DNA from: Ignavibacteria bacterium RIFOXYB12_FULL_35_14
GTDB taxonomy: Bacteria > Bacteroidota > Ignavibacteria > Ignavibacteriales > Ignavibacteriaceae
Assembly (NCBI GenBank): GCA_001803045.1
Contig: MHAR01000012.1
Location: 62,001 to 126,000, forward strand
Direction: 5' to 3'
DNA: 64,000 nucleotides
The translations under genes were made by a program, and so were the position numbers. Positions 35,744 through 41,642 of the stretch are shown here, piece by piece. The notes under the pieces are model-generated. The model had not been told where the DNA came from. It was given only the letters and a program-made list of their open reading frames with translations, and did no database searches. Numbering within the stretch: position 1 is the first letter of the stretch; each line of letters opens with the position of its first letter.

Positions 35744-36709
35744 ATGTCTAGAAAAAAAATTGCTATCATCGGCGGGGGACAAATCGGAGGCGTCCTCACT
35801 CAACTAATTGCTCAAAAACAACTTGGAGATGTCGTTCTATTCGATATAGTCCAGGATATGCCGCAAGGAAAAACTCTTGATATTGCCGAAGCTGCACGTG
35901 TTGATCTTTTTGATGTAAATATTAAAGGAACCAACGATTATCAAGATATTAGCGGAGCTGACATTATCATTATCACTGCAGGTTTGCCAAGAAAACCCGG
36001 TATGAGCCGTGATGATTTGCTTACCACAAATGCTCAGATTATGAAAACCGTTGCAGAAAATATTAAGAAGTTCGCTCCAAATTCAATCGCAATTATCATC
36101 TCTAATCCTCTTGATGCAATGGTAACCTTATTCACTAAAGTAACAGGATTTCCAACCAACCGAGTTGTTGGACAAGCGGGCATTCTCGATTCCTCACGCT
36201 TTGCGACTTTTATTGCCTGGGAACTTGGAGTTTCGGTAAAAGATATCAATGCGTTGGTTTTAGGCGGACACGGAGATACAATGGTTCCAATTGTAAGATA
36301 TGCAAATGTTAATGGAATTCCTGTTATGGAACTACTTGAGAAAAAATATAATGACAAAACAAAAGCTAAAGAAGTTATGACTGCTCTCGTTGAGAGAACA
36401 AAACAAGCCGGCGGTGAAGTTGTGAAATTATTAAAAACCGGATCAGCATTTTACTCCCCCTCCTCCTCTGCAATTGCGATGACTGAAGCTATTATTTATG
36501 ATGAAAAAAGAGTATTACCTGTCTGTGCTTACCTAAATGGCGAATATGGAGTGAAAGGTTACTTCGTTGGTGTTCCCGCTGTCTTGGGAGCTAATGGAGT
36601 TGAAAAGATCATTGAATTTGCTTTGAATGAAGAAGAACAATCGCTGCTCAATAATTCGGTGAATGCCGTTAAATCTCTCGTAGTTGATATGGAGAGGTTG
36701 GGATTTTAA
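35744..36709 (+). CDS. mdh: Malate dehydrogenase (LDH-like type)
   Basis: A 321-residue NAD-dependent enzyme interconverting malate and oxaloacetate in the TCA cycle. Visible features: dinucleotide-binding [16 protein letters not shown], the aspartate ending strand 2 in [10 protein letters not shown] (NAD preference), the substrate loop [14 protein letters not shown] with arginines diagnostic for malate rather than lactate, [19 protein letters not shown], and the catalytic histidine in [10 protein letters not shown]. Length and sequence style resemble the homotetrameric MDHs of Chlorobi and Bacteroidota. A good ribosome-binding site (AGGGAG) precedes the ATG. It appears monocistronic with a palindrome 20 bases after the stop. 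Confidence 0.95.
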
Positions 36710-36726
36710 GACTATTGTATTTATTT

Positions 36727-36780
36727 ACGAACCCAATTTCTTCACTATAAAAATTCCGTATGTCAAGAAATTGGGTTTGT
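36727..36780. repeat. AACCCAATT-type palindrome, copy B
   Basis: AACCCAATTTCTT (36730-36742) and AAGAAATTGGGTT (36765-36777) are perfect inverted arms; AC/GT pairing extends them past one mismatch. It lies just after the mdh stop and could terminate mdh transcription. It belongs to the family at 35531, 53599 and 56961. Confidence 0.75.
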
Positions 36781-36854
36781 TTGTGTTTAAAAGATTGTGA
36801 TCAGATTTACTAGACATTTACTTTTCCTCTTTAGTTTTATGTTTTTGAAACTAG

Positions 36855-37106
36855 ATGAAATTGGAGTTCCACTTGGATAAAAGTAAAATATATCCGTGTG
36901 TTTATACAAGTACAACATTTGGGAAAGGTGTCCTACACTTAGATAATGGAAATGGTAAGCCTTGTTGCGGGCACAGAAAATATGCTGTAAAAAAGTGGTA
37001 TAAACAGAATTCGTTTCCAGAATGTATAAGGTGCGCACTTAAACAACCTGATTTAGAATTAAGAAAAGAAATTTTAGATATACAATGTAACAAAACAGCC
37101 ATATAA
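36855..37106 (+). CDS. Small Cys-rich protein, first gene of cassette-like array
   Basis: An 83-residue protein of no recognised family. Cysteines in PCCGHRKY and ECIRCALK could form a zinc site (C-C-x-H ... C-x-x-C). It is preferred over opposite-strand frames because it has a cassette-like setting: 14 bases upstream stands GTTTTATG (36834-36841), and its stop codon lies inside CATATAAC (37100-37107), nearly the exact reverse complement. This pairing of start and end cores is what integron cassettes show. It has the same orientation as the next three genes. Coding status is plausible but not certain. Confidence 0.5.
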   Translation: MKLEFHLDKSKIYPCVYTSTTFGKGVLHLDNGNGKPCCGHRKYAVKKWYKQNSFPECIRCALKQPDLELRKEILDIQCNKTAI

Positions 37107-37291
37107 CTCGCGTCTCAGCCCGCCCGCTTTTTCAAAACGGTCGTAGTGAGTTTTTCGGGTTTGGTTTTTCAAAGTAAGTTGTTCTTAAAAGTGTGATTGT
37201 AATACAAAACTGATTTATAAAAATAATGTTGCGTTGACTTTTGCTGCATTGTCGTTTTGGGCGGCGGGCTAAACGCAACTACATTATACGG
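37100..37291 (+). repeat. attC-like site 1 (integron-type recombination site)
   Basis: This begins at the R''-like CATATAAC overlapping the stop of the preceding gene and ends at the R'-like ATTATACGG before the DUF4238 gene. Inner arms pair: AGCCCGCC (about 37117) with GGCGGGCT (37263-37270), plus flanking AAAACG/CGTTTT. Its right half (AATAATGTTGCGTTGACTTT, then TGCTGCATTG) is homologous to the right half of site 2. The length of about 190 bp is near the upper end for attC sites. Confidence 0.6.
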
Positions 37292-37298
37292 TAATATA

Positions 37299-38252
37299 AT
37301 GGGTTCTCCCAAAAAGCAACATTTTGTATCGCAATTTATTCTTCGGAATTTCTCAATTGATAATAAAGACCAATTATGGGTTTACGATAAGTGGGAAGAA
37401 AAAGAATATAAATCTTCAATTCGTGATTCTGCCAGTGAAAATTATTTTTATGAATTTAGTAAAGATGAAAATCAAACTAATACTGAGCTTAAATTGTCAC
37501 GACTAGAATCAGATTGTAAATCGATCTTTAAAAAGATTATCGAAGAAAAAAGTATAAAAAGCTTAACTAACGTAGAACATTTAATGATTTGTTTATTCAG
37601 TGCTGTGCAATATTTACGAACGAACAAGTCAAGAGAACTAATTGAACAAATGAATAAAGGACTCGTTGATAAAGTTCTGGAGAGGAGAAACCTTATCGAT
37701 GATTTTGAAAAAATAATGAATCTTTCCAAAGATGAGATTAGAGATATTAGCATTATTGAACTTAATAGTTCTGCTGGGAAATTAGCACCTTATTTTGTTG
37801 AGAAAGAGTTTGCCTTAGCTGAATCCCTATCGGATGAATATTTCTATATTTCTGACAATCCAATTACTTTATATAATCATTTGCCTCGTCCTTTCAGAGG
37901 GAACTTGGGATTGAAGCTAAAGGGAATAGAAATCCAATTCCCAATATCTTCTAAATTATGTATTGTATTTATGTGTCCAGATGTTGTTAATGAAGTTCGA
38001 TTAAGTATTGCGAAAGCAAATTCATATAAAGAATGCCCCGTTGACATGAGGGTAGCAGAAGAGTATTTAGCATTATTTGATGATTGCATCTGCGCCAAAT
38101 TCACAAGAGAAAATGTCGAATATCATAACTCTCTTCAAGTCAATCAATCATCAAGATATATTTATAGTTGCACAAATAATTTTGATCTTGTAAAAGATAT
38201 GATAAAATCAGATCCAGAATTAAAGAATCCTAAAAGAATTGATTTCTTCTGA
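37299..38252 (+). CDS. DUF4238 domain-containing protein (cassette gene)
   Basis: This 317-residue protein matches the DUF4238 family by its N terminus, PKKQHFVSQFILRNFS, and the LWVYDKWEEK that follows; the central part is helical (IFKKIIEEKSIKSLTNVEHL) and FYISDNPITLYN around residue 188 is a conserved strand. The biochemical function of the family is unknown, though members are common in accessory DNA. I use the ATG at 37299; the frame runs back to a TTG at 37257 inside the attC-like site. The unit is bounded by TTATACGG (37284-37291) and CCGTATAA (38257-38264), exact reverse complements. Confidence 0.82.
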   Translation: MGSPKKQHFVSQFILRNFSIDNKDQLWVYDKWEEKEYKSSIRDSASENYFYEFSKDENQTNTELKLSRLESDCKSIFKKIIEEKSIKSLTNVEHLMICLFSAVQYLRTNKSRELIEQMNKGLVDKVLERRNLIDDFEKIMNLSKDEIRDISIIELNSSAGKLAPYFVEKEFALAESLSDEYFYISDNPITLYNHLPRPFRGNLGLKLKGIEIQFPISSKLCIVFMCPDVVNEVRLSIAKANSYKECPVDMRVAEEYLALFDDCICAKFTRENVEYHNSLQVNQSSRYIYSCTNNFDLVKDMIKSDPELKNPKRIDFF

Positions 38253-38256
38253 TATA

Positions 38257-38449
38257 CCGTATAACAAGTTCTTCAAGGCCGACCGCTTTAAACTGTTTCG
38301 GCATTTGTGTAATTAAAAAATTGTGGTGTAAAAGTTAGTTGCTCATTAAAGATAGTTAACAAAACAAATTTATAAATAATTATTGGCGTTAGCTTTTCAA
38401 TGCTGCATTGCTGTGTTGGACGTCGGTTTAAAAACAACGCCGTTATGCC
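38257..38449 (+). repeat. attC-like site 2
   Basis: The R''-like CCGTATAAC (38257-38265) is just after the DUF4238 stop and the R'-like GTTATGCC (38442-38449) just before the HNH gene. Inner arms include AAGGCCGACCGC paired imperfectly with GACGTCGGTTT. The segment TTATAAATAATTATTGGCGT, then TAGCTTTTCAATGCTGCATT, is clearly related to site 1. Start TATAACAAG and end GCCGTTATGCC are typical of Vibrio-type attC repeats. Confidence 0.65.
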
Positions 38450-38453
38450 TATA

Positions 38454-39215
38454 ATGATGAATAATATTTTTATAAGATTAACAAAAATCCAACAAGAGGT
38501 TTTAGAACTTCTTTTTGATGGAACTATTATGACAATTGATAGGATGAATCTGGCATCAATTGGAAACAGAAATGTTGCTCCGAATACACGTTACTTTCTT
38601 ACAGACAATAATCTTGTAACAAGAAAAGATAAAACTAAGTCAATTAACACAAAAGGTAATGGATACATCATTTCGGAAAAAGGACGATATACTTTAAATG
38701 AAAATAGGAATATAAAAAGAAGAGGAACGCCAAGAATTTTATTAGAAGAAAAAAAATGTGGAAAGTGTAAAATTATTAAACCTATTTCCGATTTTGTTTC
38801 AATCTATGGTTTTAAAAATCCTCGTGGAAAATATTGTCATGATTGCTTCCTGTCAATTCAACAAGATCACGCTATTTCATTAATGGAAGGAAAGAATTTT
38901 TGTCTCTATTGCGGCGAGAAAATTTCCAAAGCATATGATTGGACAATAGATGGGAAATCAACCAAAACATATCTTCATAGAGATCATATGGATCCGCTTT
39001 CACTTGGTGGAGAAGATATTGATAATAACACAGTTTATTGTTGCACAAACTGCAACATAAAAAAAGGGAATAAAACTTTTAGTGAGTGGTTGAAAACGCT
39101 TGAATCTAATTATGCAGATTTAGCAAGAGAAATATATATCAAAAAGCATAAATATATTCCAGAGGAATTTAAACCTTCTCCAACAGAAATAATAATTACA
39201 CTAAGTATAAAATAG
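38454..39215 (+). CDS. HNH endonuclease domain protein (cassette gene)
   Basis: A protein of about 253 residues. The N-terminal 90 residues resemble a DNA-binding helical domain (LTKIQQEVLELLFDGTIMTI). A cysteine cluster follows (CGKCKIIKPISDF, KYCHDCF), then the HNH core: CLYCGEKIS, HRDHMDPLSLGGEDIDNN as the catalytic H-D-H segment, and CCTNCNIKKGNKTF. HNH proteins cut DNA in restriction, homing and phage-defence settings; the target is unknown. I start at the ATG at 38454 because the upstream frame lies in the attC-like site. The unit is bounded by GTTATGCC and GGCGTAAC, complementary with one mismatch. Confidence 0.82.
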   Translation: MMNNIFIRLTKIQQEVLELLFDGTIMTIDRMNLASIGNRNVAPNTRYFLTDNNLVTRKDKTKSINTKGNGYIISEKGRYTLNENRNIKRRGTPRILLEEKKCGKCKIIKPISDFVSIYGFKNPRGKYCHDCFLSIQQDHAISLMEGKNFCLYCGEKISKAYDWTIDGKSTKTYLHRDHMDPLSLGGEDIDNNTVYCCTNCNIKKGNKTFSEWLKTLESNYADLAREIYIKKHKYIPEEFKPSPTEIIITLSIK

Positions 39216-39373
39216 GCGTAACATCTTTAATAAGTAAAAAGTCAATAGGATGCACTAATTCTAAAGTAAATAATATTTGCAAAAAAGTTCTTTGTTCTAT
39301 TTAAGAGTGATTTGAAATCACTAGTTTCAAAAACAATCGGCTGTTGTGTTTTAACATAACATGCCGTTAGGCG
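39215..39373 (+). repeat. attC-like site 3
   Basis: The R''-like GGCGTAAC (39215-39222) overlaps the HNH stop. The site ends at the R'-like GTTAGGC (39366-39372), which fits the integron core GTTRRRY exactly. The right arm TGTTTTAACATAACATGCCG resembles the right arm of site 2. The middle is AT-rich with an internal hairpin (AGTGATTTGAAATCACT). Confidence 0.6.
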
Positions 39374-39396
39374 GTTAAGCCTTCTATGGAATTACT

Positions 39397-39825
39397 ATGG
39401 CATTGAATAGGATCGAAAAGAGATCCCAAAAAGGCATTCAAAAGGTTCTCAAAAAAATAGAGAACGGAACTTTCATTTGTAAATCGCGTCAAGCGGTCGG
39501 TAGTTCAGCGATTGGAAAACCAGTCGATTTACAAATTTCTAACAAGTCTACAAAAAGAAATCTTGTTGCTGTCGAAATTTCAAATGTGAATACAACTCAA
39601 CTAGTAGGCGAAGCTACTCGATTATACTTTGATTCCATACCGCTGAAACTTCTCGTTCTTCACCGCGGTAATACGCCAAAGAATGGGAAGGAGACATCCG
39701 AAAAAATTCTTTGCGCTCTTTATGGGCAAAAACAAATCCAAGATACACCTTCCCGTGTTACTTGGTACAATGATAAAAAATCTCTGGATGCTGTGTTACG
39801 AGAACTCTTAAATAAATTGACTTAA
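39397..39825 (+). CDS. Hypothetical protein, fourth cassette gene
   Basis: A 142-residue basic protein of no recognised family. The central stretch KPVDLQISNKSTKRNLVAVE followed by ISNVNTTQLVGEATRLYFD has a D-x(13-16)-E pattern somewhat like PD-(D/E)xK nucleases, but the final lysine is missing, so no activity is claimed. It starts at the ATG at 39397. The unit begins with GTTAGGCGGTTAAG (39366-39379) and ends with CTTAACCGCTTAAC (39821-39834), reverse complements with one mismatch, and the stop codon lies inside the end core, as in the other three units. Confidence 0.65.
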   Translation: MALNRIEKRSQKGIQKVLKKIENGTFICKSRQAVGSSAIGKPVDLQISNKSTKRNLVAVEISNVNTTQLVGEATRLYFDSIPLKLLVLHRGNTPKNGKETSEKILCALYGQKQIQDTPSRVTWYNDKKSLDAVLRELLNKLT

Positions 39826-40047
39826 CCGCTTAACCCCTTTGATAAATAAAAAGCCCCTCTAAAGGCGGGTAAGCAATAGGAAATAGTAGTACCATGCAAA
39901 ATTCCACTTTGGCGGATTGCAAAAAGTTTTCAACCTTAGGTTGATAAAATTGAGTTTTTATTAGACCGACTTAAACAACAAACCGATGCAATTAATTATA
40001 GATAGACTCAAGGGTTGTAAAGAATTTTCGAATTCAGCCCAACAAAA
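39826..40047. other. Non-coding tail of the cassette-like array
   Basis: This starts with the R''-like GCTTAAC (39828-39834) of the fourth unit; no matching R'-like core or further gene was found, so a fourth attC-like site, if any, is degenerate. A small palindrome TCAACCTTAGGTTGA is present at about 39938. The region ends at the duplicated rpmA terminator. Confidence 0.5.
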
Positions 40048-40073
40048 AACCCTCCGAGCGGAGGGTTCTTTTA
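40048..40073. terminator. Duplicated rpmA-type terminator hairpin
   Basis: AACCCTCCG (40048-40056) and CGGAGGGTT (40059-40067) form a 9-bp stem with A and T tracts on either side, so it could act in both directions. It is a near copy of the hairpin after intact rpmA at 41345-41369 and is followed by a decayed copy of the rpmA 3' end. Confidence 0.75.
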
Positions 40074-40090
40074 TAAACTGTGTTTCGTGA

Positions 40091-40222
40091 TTATGCGGGG
40101 TCGATATTGATTTATTTTCTCTCGCCTCTTTTAGTTTCAAACTTTACCTTTCCATCTTTTACAGCAAATAGAGTGTCATCGCCCGCACGCATTACATTTC
40201 TGCCAGCATGAAATTTTGTTCC
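40091..40222 (-). pseudogene. Decayed duplicate of the rpmA (L27) 3' end
   Basis: The minus strand reads [20 protein letters not shown], then [16 protein letters not shown], a stop, and INIDPA, matching the last 44 residues of L27 encoded at 41388-41642 with a few substitutions and a TAA where the intact gene has TAT (Tyr). Upstream of GTKF the similarity ends. Together with its terminator, the block 40037-40222 is a diverged direct copy of 41333-41520. It is non-functional as a ribosomal protein gene. Confidence 0.85.
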
Positions 40223-40296
40223 ACTTGGGCTAACAAAACATTTTTGAGAAATGGCAATAAATAAATTTTATGATGTCTTGAAATAAAACCTTATAA

Positions 40297-40312
40297 GGAC
40301 TATATTTAGTCC
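40297..40312. promoter_or_regulatory. Candidate Phd operator palindrome
   Basis: GGACTATATTTAGTCC is a perfect 6-bp inverted repeat with a 4-base centre, 17 bases upstream of the antitoxin start. Phd-type antitoxins autoregulate by binding short palindromes in this position. AAAGGAG shortly before the ATG is a strong ribosome-binding site. Confidence 0.5.
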
Positions 40313-40329
40313 ACATAAAGGAGTAAATA

Positions 40330-40608
40330 ATGAAACTAAGCGAATCGGTAAAATCAATAAGTTACCTAAAAGCTAATGCTGCACAGTTGATAGAGGATGC
40401 AAATAAAAATCAAAAAACATTTGTCATTACTCAAAATGGAGAGGCAAAAGTAATTGTGCAGGACATTAAAGCTTATGAAAAAACTCAAGAAACCTTAGCT
40501 CTTCTAAAAATATTGTCAATGAGCAGCGAGAACATAGAAAATTCAAAAGCTAAAGGAATAAAAGAAACTTTTTCTGATATCAGAAAAGAATTAAAAATTC
40601 ATAAATAA
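40330..40608 (+). CDS. Phd/YefM family antitoxin
   Basis: A 92-residue antitoxin with the Phd fold: an N-terminal DNA-binding part (SVKSISYLKANAAQLIEDAN), a beta strand pair (TFVITQNGEAKVIVQDI), and a helical toxin-binding C terminus. It neutralises the adjacent ParE/RelE-like toxin and represses the operon. The toxin gene starts 2 bases after its stop. The pair lies between the intact and decayed copies of the rpmA 3' end, in the same orientation as the cassette-like genes. Confidence 0.88.
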   Translation: MKLSESVKSISYLKANAAQLIEDANKNQKTFVITQNGEAKVIVQDIKAYEKTQETLALLKILSMSSENIENSKAKGIKETFSDIRKELKIHK

Positions 40609-40610
40609 AA

Positions 40611-40934
40611 ATGAACTACAAATTGCTGATTGATCCCTTAGCTAAAAAAGATATTATAGAGATTTACAATTATGTCGCTGTAGACGATTCCGTCGAAAAT
40701 GCCGACAAATTGCTCAAGAACTTGGAAAGAACATATTTAAGCTTAGAAAAACTTCCATTGAGAGGACATATTCCAGAAGAATTAAGAGGTACTGGTATAA
40801 AAAGATTTCTTGAAATTCATTTTAAACCTAATCGAATAATCTATGAAATAATAGATAACATTGTATATGTTCATTGTGTAGTAGATGGAAGAAGAAATAT
40901 GCAGGAGCTATTATCCAGCAGATTGCTTAGGTGA
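40611..40934 (+). CDS. RelE/ParE family toxin
   Basis: A 107-residue toxin with the ParE/RelE fold: LLIDPLAKKDIIEIYNYV (N-terminal helix), SLEKLPLRGHIPEELRGTGI (loop), FLEIHFKPNRIIYEI and VYVHCVVDGRRNMQELL. ParE toxins inhibit DNA gyrase and RelE types cut mRNA on the ribosome; the sequence alone does not decide. The PLRGHIPEEL and final R-R-N-M-Q-E-L-L pattern is common in ParE-type members paired with Phd antitoxins. It is tightly coupled to the antitoxin upstream and overlaps the next frame by 4 bases. Confidence 0.88.
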   Translation: MNYKLLIDPLAKKDIIEIYNYVAVDDSVENADKLLKNLERTYLSLEKLPLRGHIPEELRGTGIKRFLEIHFKPNRIIYEIIDNIVYVHCVVDGRRNMQELLSSRLLR

Positions 40935-41323
40935 AGTTGATGAGAATCCTTAAATATTTTTTTCTAGTATTTTTTTTATTGCTGCTAAGTAATTGTAGTG
41001 AATTAATTCAAACTAATGGTTTTTCAGATGATTTAAATTATCGACCCAATTATCCTATTTCTGAAACACTTCAGACACCTACATTGAGTTTCGGTATTGG
41101 TATTGAAACGGGTGAAAGTTTTATCCATTGGACAAATGTTGAAAGTGTAGATTTTTATGAACTTGAAAAAAGTTATACTGAAGGTTTTGAATCATCATGG
41201 TTAATATTCCGTGGATCAGAAATAAGTTTTACTGAACCTGGTTCGCTAATCAGGTACTACTATCGAGTAAGAGTCATCTATAATTTAAGTGCTAGTAAAT
41301 GGAGTAATATTGTTCATAATTAA
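40931..41323 (+). CDS. Small putative lipoprotein
   Basis: A 130-residue protein with an N-terminal hydrophobic segment and lipobox (FFLLLLSNCSEL), then a beta-rich domain resembling a single FN3 module (GESFIHWTNVESVDFYELEK, YYYRVRVIYNLSASKWSN). The GTG at 40931 overlaps the ParE stop by four bases; the ATG at 40940 is an alternative start. Function unknown. It shares the interval between the two rpmA copies with the toxin-antitoxin pair. Confidence 0.65.
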   Translation: MKLMRILKYFFLVFFLLLLSNCSELIQTNGFSDDLNYRPNYPISETLQTPTLSFGIGIETGESFIHWTNVESVDFYELEKSYTEGFESSWLIFRGSEISFTEPGSLIRYYYRVRVIYNLSASKWSNIVHN

Positions 41324-41344
41324 ATTCTAATTTTGCCAACAAAA

Positions 41345-41369
41345 AACCCTCCGCGTGGAGGGTTCTTTT
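41345..41369. terminator. Terminator of rplU-rpmA
   Basis: AACCCTCC (41345-41352) and GGAGGGTT (41357-41364) form a stem. On the minus strand it is followed by a run of T and lies 19 bases after the rpmA stop. The plus-strand side has CTTTTA, so it may also end the lipoprotein transcript. Confidence 0.75.
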
Positions 41370-41387
41370 ATAAATTTTTCTTTGTGA

Positions 41388-41642
41388 TTATGCGGGGTCG
41401 ATATTAATATATTTTCTTTCGCCTCTTTTAACTTCAAACTTAACTTTACCATCTATTAAAGCAAACAGAGTGTCGTCACCAGCGCGCATTACATTTCTGC
41501 CAGCATGAAATTTTGTCCCTCTTTGACGAACAATAATATTCCCGGCTAAAACTTGCTCTCCGCCAAATCTTTTAACACCCAAACGCTGAGCATTGCTGTC
41601 TCTTCCATTACGAGTTGAACCTTGACCTTTTTTATGTGCCAT
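41388..41642 (-). CDS. rpmA: 50S ribosomal protein L27
   Basis: An 84-residue component of the large ribosomal subunit near the peptidyl-transferase centre. The sequence [30 protein letters not shown] and [15 protein letters not shown] is canonical. The start is the ATG at 41642, so no cleavable Firmicutes-type N-terminal extension is present. It follows rplU by 12 bases in the usual L21-L27 operon. A second, broken copy of its 3' half lies 1.3 kb downstream at 40091-40222. Confidence 0.98.

Follow-up and report, generated by a model that had tools for sequence, protein, structure and literature searches.

A short integrase-less cassette array between mdh and rpmA of an Ignavibacteria bacterium, with a DUF4238 gene as candidate anti-phage cargo

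An insertion downstream of mdh

The DNA analysed (the window) is a stretch of 64,000 nucleotides from contig C12 of Ignavibacteria bacterium RIFOXYB12_FULL_35_14, i.e. the source genome. After mdh, four ORFs of 83, 317, approximately 252 and 142 codons follow one another on the plus strand, and the last of these is followed by a phd/parE pair and a 130-aa lipoprotein-like ORF (Table 1). The reading frame of each of the four ORFs was the best of six when judged by the codon usage of nearby genes, with the 83-aa ORF at a merely neutral score of -0.002 per codon; coding by the 142- and 83-aa ORFs is supported by this codon usage. A first-pass annotation had proposed the three larger genes and these proved to be real, the first two matching the PF14022 and HNH models, respectively, above the cut-offs. 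The 83-aa ORF lies just outside the coordinates of that annotation (i.e. 37299-39825).

Table 1. Coordinates of the features at the locus (positions in the window)
Feature	Position	Strand	Details
mdh	35744-36709	+	
Insertion between mdh and rpmA	36710..41335		Cassettes, with a separate phd/parE block to the right
83-aa ORF, orphan	36855..37106	+	First cassette gene after mdh
attC site 1	37099..37290	+	192 bp; R2 104.2 bits, E 2.9e-19
DUF4238 protein, 317 aa	37299..38252	+	PF14022 E 1.4e-40; candidate single-gene anti-phage protein
attC site 2	38257..38449	+	193 bp; R2 155.2 bits, E 2.1e-29
HNH endonuclease-like protein, 252 aa	38457..39215	+	Pfam HNH E 1.1e-7
attC site 3, degenerate/atypical	39214..39374	+	RYYYAAC-like and GTTAGGC ends kept, inner arm missing
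142-aa basic protein, orphan	39397..39825	+	No attC found after the gene
rpmA	41388-41642	-	

Loci containing mdh were found in 18 relatives (21 genomes were searched, the source genome included). In 11 of these 18, rpmA is convergent to mdh across a gap of 50-429 bp (i.e. an empty site), and the gap is 50-128 bp in 10 of the 11, indicating that the 4.6 kb between mdh and rpmA in the window is an insertion. No rpmA was found within the 1.3-1.5 kb examined at mdh in four of the 18, including a relative from the same genus (G001), and three of the 18 have mdh homologues of ~54% identity with rpmA on the opposite side. In G001, mdh is followed by a PLD-like gene (PLDc_2, E 1.3e-6), an attC site, a 198-aa membrane-protein-like gene, another attC site and more up to the contig end; this cargo is wholly unlike that of the window.

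The 3' end of rpmA and its terminator are duplicated in the window (40039-40236 and 41336-41533; 198 bp, 86% identical). The duplicates flank the phd/parE toxin-antitoxin pair and the lipoprotein-like ORF (40330-41323), which hints at a further insertion or recombination next to the cassettes and independent of them.

attC sites and the class of the array

The spacers between the ORFs recur across the source genome and align as a family of ~190 bp that is bounded by RYYYAAC and GTTRRRY and has complementary arms. As a guard against circularity, a covariance model (R2) was built from seven sites, none of which is in the window. Sites 1 and 2 were detected by R2, whose best match in the 64-kb window beyond these two had an E-value of 0.34. 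Both have the features that define attC (i.e. RYYYAAC...GTTRRRY ends with complementary inner arms), the GTT box of site 1 having A instead of G as its first base, and copies of site 2 with 78-81% identity occur elsewhere in the source genome. Site 3 was classed as degenerate because the end boxes are kept and the inner arm is missing. This site falls outside the attC definition on its inner arms and on the independent model R2, which gave a partial match only (39259-39372, E 0.83); the E-value of 2.5e-14 obtained with model R1 comes from a model that contains site 3. Downstream of the 142-aa gene, an unfiltered scan of 39826-40300 revealed no attC (best E 1.1-1.8). A 14-bp inverted repeat (39366-39379 and 39821-39834; 93% complementary) brackets the 142-aa ORF, and inverted repeats as long as this arise by chance too around this ORF.

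In an alignment of 10 sites, 91.6% of stem cells were paired as compared to 30-39% in slid controls, and both-sided changes were present in 13 of 23 stem pairs; this alignment includes the three window sites and takes its structure partly from its own consensus. R2 identified 47 sites in 28 loci of the source and related genomes, seven of which are the model's own. With R1, there were at least 21 sites at E <= 1 and at least 18 at E <= 0.005 across the source genome, these figures being lower bounds from the scoring of 150 of 4,935 candidates. In two relatives (G012 and G054), R2 sites directly follow the 3' end of an intact TIGR02249 integrase gene and share its strand. The first-pass annotation had placed its genes in a mobile cassette setting, and this is borne out by the two window sites found with R2 and by the presence of different cassettes at mdh in G001.

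None of the 21 TIGR02249 matches at E <= 0.001 in the source genome lies on contig C12. Only matches above the model's cut-off were counted since weaker ones occurred in 14 of 14 ordinary control genomes; those above the cut-off were on C11 and C51, in both cases at contig ends. Pieces of integron integrase were observed on C11, C51, C52 and C68, mostly at contig ends and two of them with stops, so the source genome probably contains more than one integron locus, some of them decayed. CALIN are described in the accessible text of PMC9024848 as clusters of attC sites without an integrase, and the same text already reports integrons in Chlorobi and Ignavibacteriae. The window array is a CALIN because integrases occur elsewhere in the genome and none was matched on C12: two R2 sites lie on a contig with no TIGR02249 match, corresponding to the minimum of at least two attC sites with no integrase nearby, whereas a complete integron has its integrase next to the array and the nearest integrase matches are here on other contigs. 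The shortness of the array and its degenerate last site would fit a decaying array.

The cassette genes

The DUF4238 ORF starts 9 bp past attC site 1. Its product is a member of the family, PF14022 spanning residues 6-292 with a score of 139.9 bits as compared to a Pfam gathering cut-off of 27. The conserved polar residues of the family were for the most part retained: relative to 16 aligned members, H8, Y51, E63, E70, R107, S185, D186, P188 and N277 were kept, and departures from most members comprised Ile for Tyr14 and Ile for Thr184. No PADLOC family matched the window protein, DUF4238-Pers included; this last model matches the cassette protein of G404 (E 7.8e-42) and neither the window protein nor that of G063. 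The family has a patchy distribution, occurring in three of 97 relatives, 20 of 391 class genomes and 679 of 72,556 plasmid records, and in none of 50,697 phage records (tblastn). Plasmid homologues exhibited ~30% identity to the window protein, and inspection of two plasmid neighbourhoods revealed a Ppl anti-phage protein near one DUF4238 gene and an Abi-family protein near the other. In both G063 and G404, the DUF4238 gene sits between R2 attC sites (E 1.4e-20 and 2.4e-14; E 4.8e-7 and 1.2e-17, respectively), and three of the four DUF4238 genes found in the order are cassette-borne, the fourth (G009) being without a site.

A structural model of the DUF4238 protein was obtained with a pLDDT of 77.6 and a pTM of 0.80. 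Foldseek gave no PDB match below an E-value of 0.19, and a PDB profile search produced a coiled-coil match (E 0.0087) and chance matches only. In a second structure comparison, the best match was to helices of SecA2 (Z 5.1, 105 residues, rmsd 6.9) and was taken to reflect a common helical arrangement; the fold is thus without a clear relative among solved structures. A single strong match was present in BFVD, to protein V9IQH5 of phage Smp131 (E 2.3e-9, TM 0.60/0.63), which is presumably Smp_43, a protein of matching length. Smp_43 of the P2-like Stenotrophomonas phage Smp131 (L199:30939-31835; 298 aa) adjoins an integrase and is a divergent DUF4238 relative, matching the DUF4238 profile with a probability of 89.9 and an E-value of 1.7e-6 over 91 columns. 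That the best viral match comes from a P2-like phage agrees with the P2 hotspot published for DUF4238.

According to the accessible text of PMC9122126, one DUF4238 protein on its own made E. coli strongly resistant to T7, and the first-pass proposal of a defence role for the family holds to this extent. The E. coli system, which comes from a hotspot of P2-like prophages, shares with the window the Pfam domain at nearly full length and the arrangement as a single gene in a small variable site between conserved genes; as far as that text describes the system, the window gene differs in being an integron cassette and not part of a prophage hotspot. The window protein is not matched by DUF4238-Pers, and its anti-phage activity is a prediction.

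The HNH ORF was initially listed from 38400 (271 aa). A start at 38454 or 38457 (252-253 aa) is favoured because the ATG at 38400 falls inside attC site 2. Matches to HNH, HNH_5 (E 4.1e-7) and HNH_4 (E 5.2e-5) were all above the Pfam cut-offs, with PF01844 at 32.3 bits as compared to 21.4, placing the protein in the HNH superfamily. The HNH core (149-218) is preceded by zinc-ribbon-like Cys pairs at residues 101/104 and 127/130, and the N-terminal region appears winged-helix-like by eye. The best PHROGs match was to phrog_1035, endonuclease VII (E 2.5e-14), and likeness to Cas9/IscB models was restricted to the HNH core. Phage HNH endonucleases (i.e. the endonuclease VII and HNH groups of PHROGs) have this core in common with the window protein and differ from it in the N-terminal region and Cys pairs, the likeness being at domain level only. 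Matches were found in 48 of 97 relative genomes, including its own, and were confined to the HNH core except in G054, where a lone gene encodes a partial relative with 55% identity over residues 93-240; no attC was detected within 10 kb around this gene. Searches of the plasmids, viral contigs and genome_contigs yielded no relatives of the HNH protein. Judged by its sequence, the protein is likely a stand-alone DNA endonuclease and may, with less certainty, restrict phage DNA. Taken by itself, the HNH core would fit a homing endonuclease, or one of another kind, equally well, and a role as a defence gene is plausible.

The 142-aa protein is basic, as the first-pass annotation had stated, with a pI of 10.0 and 25 Lys and Arg residues as compared to 12 Asp and Glu. 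It had no match in Pfam (E up to 10), NCBIfam, PADLOC or PDB sequences and reached chance level only in PHROGs (best E 0.17). Relatives were absent from plasmids, phages, viral contigs and genome_contigs, and from 96 relatives and 394 other phylum genomes (two overlapping sets), the degenerate-pattern scans for this protein being sensitive to close relatives only. A single-sequence structure model had a pLDDT of 37. The first-pass annotation had seen a weak nuclease-like acidic pattern in the protein, which would be a putative one: by eye, a D-x(n)-ExS pattern can be discerned, in which the Lys of the PD-(D/E)xK motif (D...ExK) is absent. The 142-aa gene is a putative cassette gene since attC site 3 fails with R2 and there is no downstream attC. 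The 83-aa protein contains six Cys and three His residues. This second orphan had no Pfam, NCBIfam or PADLOC match, and no relatives in the others of 391 class genomes, in plasmids or in viral contigs.

Related arrays and the role of the cargo

The cargo of related arrays was examined using 54 R2 sites and the 51 ORFs upstream of them, of which 48 were scanned and three short ones dropped. These ORFs start mostly a few to ~80 bp past the preceding site, with one per interval. Among the matches listed for the 48 cassettes were a BglII-type restriction enzyme, PDC-M16B (E 5e-200), PDC-M57B, two UvrD/GajB-like helicases and DUF4238 (twice), and the non-defence cargo included Por secretion tails, in at least five of the 48, as well as various other enzymes. 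As the 48 cassettes mix both kinds, defence-type cargo is common and not exclusive in related arrays. A comparable situation exists in Vibrio: according to the accessible text of PMC12409362, which describes integrons as stores of anti-phage genes, protection was provided by at least 16 of the 179 cassettes. On the window's contig, an attC also follows a 511-aa ORF (L032:1960-3492, i.e. G000:C12:29959-31491) that has weak Olokun OloB and Mrr-type nuclease matches (E 2.3e-9 and 0.1).

Additionally, the neighbourhoods of DUF4238 genes were compared for 17 regions (15 other genomes) and 16 control regions, leaving out weak or very short DUF4238 matches in G287, G267 and G247. Once the DUF4238 ORFs were removed (17 of 176), 159 ORFs were set against 185 from the controls; one of the 159 (L117:8257-8562) overlaps a split DUF4238 gene in its second piece. 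Strong matches near DUF4238 comprised Druantia DruA, HmaA/HmaB, DrmD/DrmA, a type IIG restriction enzyme and an E1-E2 protein. The controls also contained defence-library matches, namely a methyltransferase, PDC-S02, an HKD and Snf2 protein and RtcR-like regulators. Enrichment of DUF4238 near defence genes, a check put forward in the first-pass annotation, is at most suggestive, with strong defence matches present in the 17 regions and defence-library matches occurring in the 16 controls too. Sites of attC type were present in two of the 17 regions and none of the 16 controls, a difference that was not significant (Fisher P = 0.48).

The reading we favour, and hold to be probable, is that an integrase-less cassette array lies between mdh and rpmA in which the DUF4238 protein acts as a stand-alone anti-phage protein, the HNH protein as a DNA-restricting endonuclease and the other genes as independent cargo. 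A short CALIN would have been inserted between the two conserved genes, each cassette consisting of one promoter-poor ORF with its own ~190-bp attC. The cassettes were probably placed by an integron integrase that is encoded elsewhere in the genome and acts in trans, and this enzyme may be able to swap them. The product of the DUF4238 cassette is most likely an anti-phage protein that works alone, a role shown for one homologue; on infection, it would detect the phage or be activated by it and then block phage replication, possibly through a site formed by the His, Glu, Arg and Asp residues that are conserved in the family. The HNH cassette would, with less confidence, encode a stand-alone DNA endonuclease that restricts incoming DNA, and the 142- and 83-aa genes would be further independent cargo. 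Nothing suggests that the cassette genes cooperate. Their independence, as supposed in the first-pass annotation, agrees with their separation by attC sites and with the other genes carried at this position by the sister species.

An alternative, which we consider unlikely, accepts the cassettes and takes their cargo as general accessory baggage, with an HNH protein of phage or intron type and a window DUF4238 protein that has no defence role. The likeness of the HNH core to endonuclease VII and other phage HNH families, the confinement of the Cas9/IscB likeness to this core and the many non-defence genes in related arrays agree with such cargo; against it stand the member of the DUF4238 family that was tested as anti-phage, the additional N-terminal region and zinc-ribbon-like Cys pairs of the HNH protein and the absence of phage or intron genes beside the HNH gene. 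It is highly improbable that DUF4238, HNH and the 142-aa gene constitute one multi-gene defence system. The three genes are adjacent, on the same strand and similarly spaced, but attC separates DUF4238 from HNH, the DUF4238 cassettes of G063 and G404 occur without either partner in the stretches examined, and one BLAST search found no relatives of the HNH or 142-aa proteins next to any DUF4238 gene, leading us to reject a joint system. That the repeats between the ORFs are another dispersed repeat and not attC is likewise highly improbable and was rejected. Their length exceeds that of most attC sites and R2 misses site 3, but they have RYYYAAC/GTTRRRY ends, paired covarying arms, one closely spaced ORF per interval and, in two relatives, an adjoining intact integron integrase.

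Returning to the array as a set of independent cassettes, a bolder proposal can be made, tentatively and as something possible rather than probable. The mdh-rpmA junction may be a recurrent landing site in this genus for single defence cassettes distant from their integrase (i.e. DUF4238, HNH and the orphans here, and a PLD-type nuclease in the sister species), in which case the orphans would be novel anti-phage proteins acting alone and DUF4238 would have been captured repeatedly by integrons of the order.

DUF4238 is counted among defence systems in surveys, as indicated by the accessible text of PMC10855318, PMC11291487 and PMC12629846. The role of integrons as reservoirs of defence genes and that of DUF4238 in defence are already known separately from published work, and in the open-access literature, to which the survey was confined, no paper joins DUF4238 with integrons. 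Darracq and Kieffer, both in 2025, have reportedly described anti-phage cassettes in chromosomal and mobile integrons. Those integrons likewise have single-ORF cassettes that end in attC and a cargo made up partly of defence genes; the window array differs in its lineage, its ~190-bp attC sites, the lack of an integrase in cis and the DUF4238 cargo. The present array would extend the idea of integrons as defence reservoirs to another lineage and add the DUF4238 defence family to the cargo of integron cassettes. As neighbouring cassettes in such arrays supply short single-gene defences, the orphan 142- and 83-aa genes and the HNH gene would be cheap candidates for testing.
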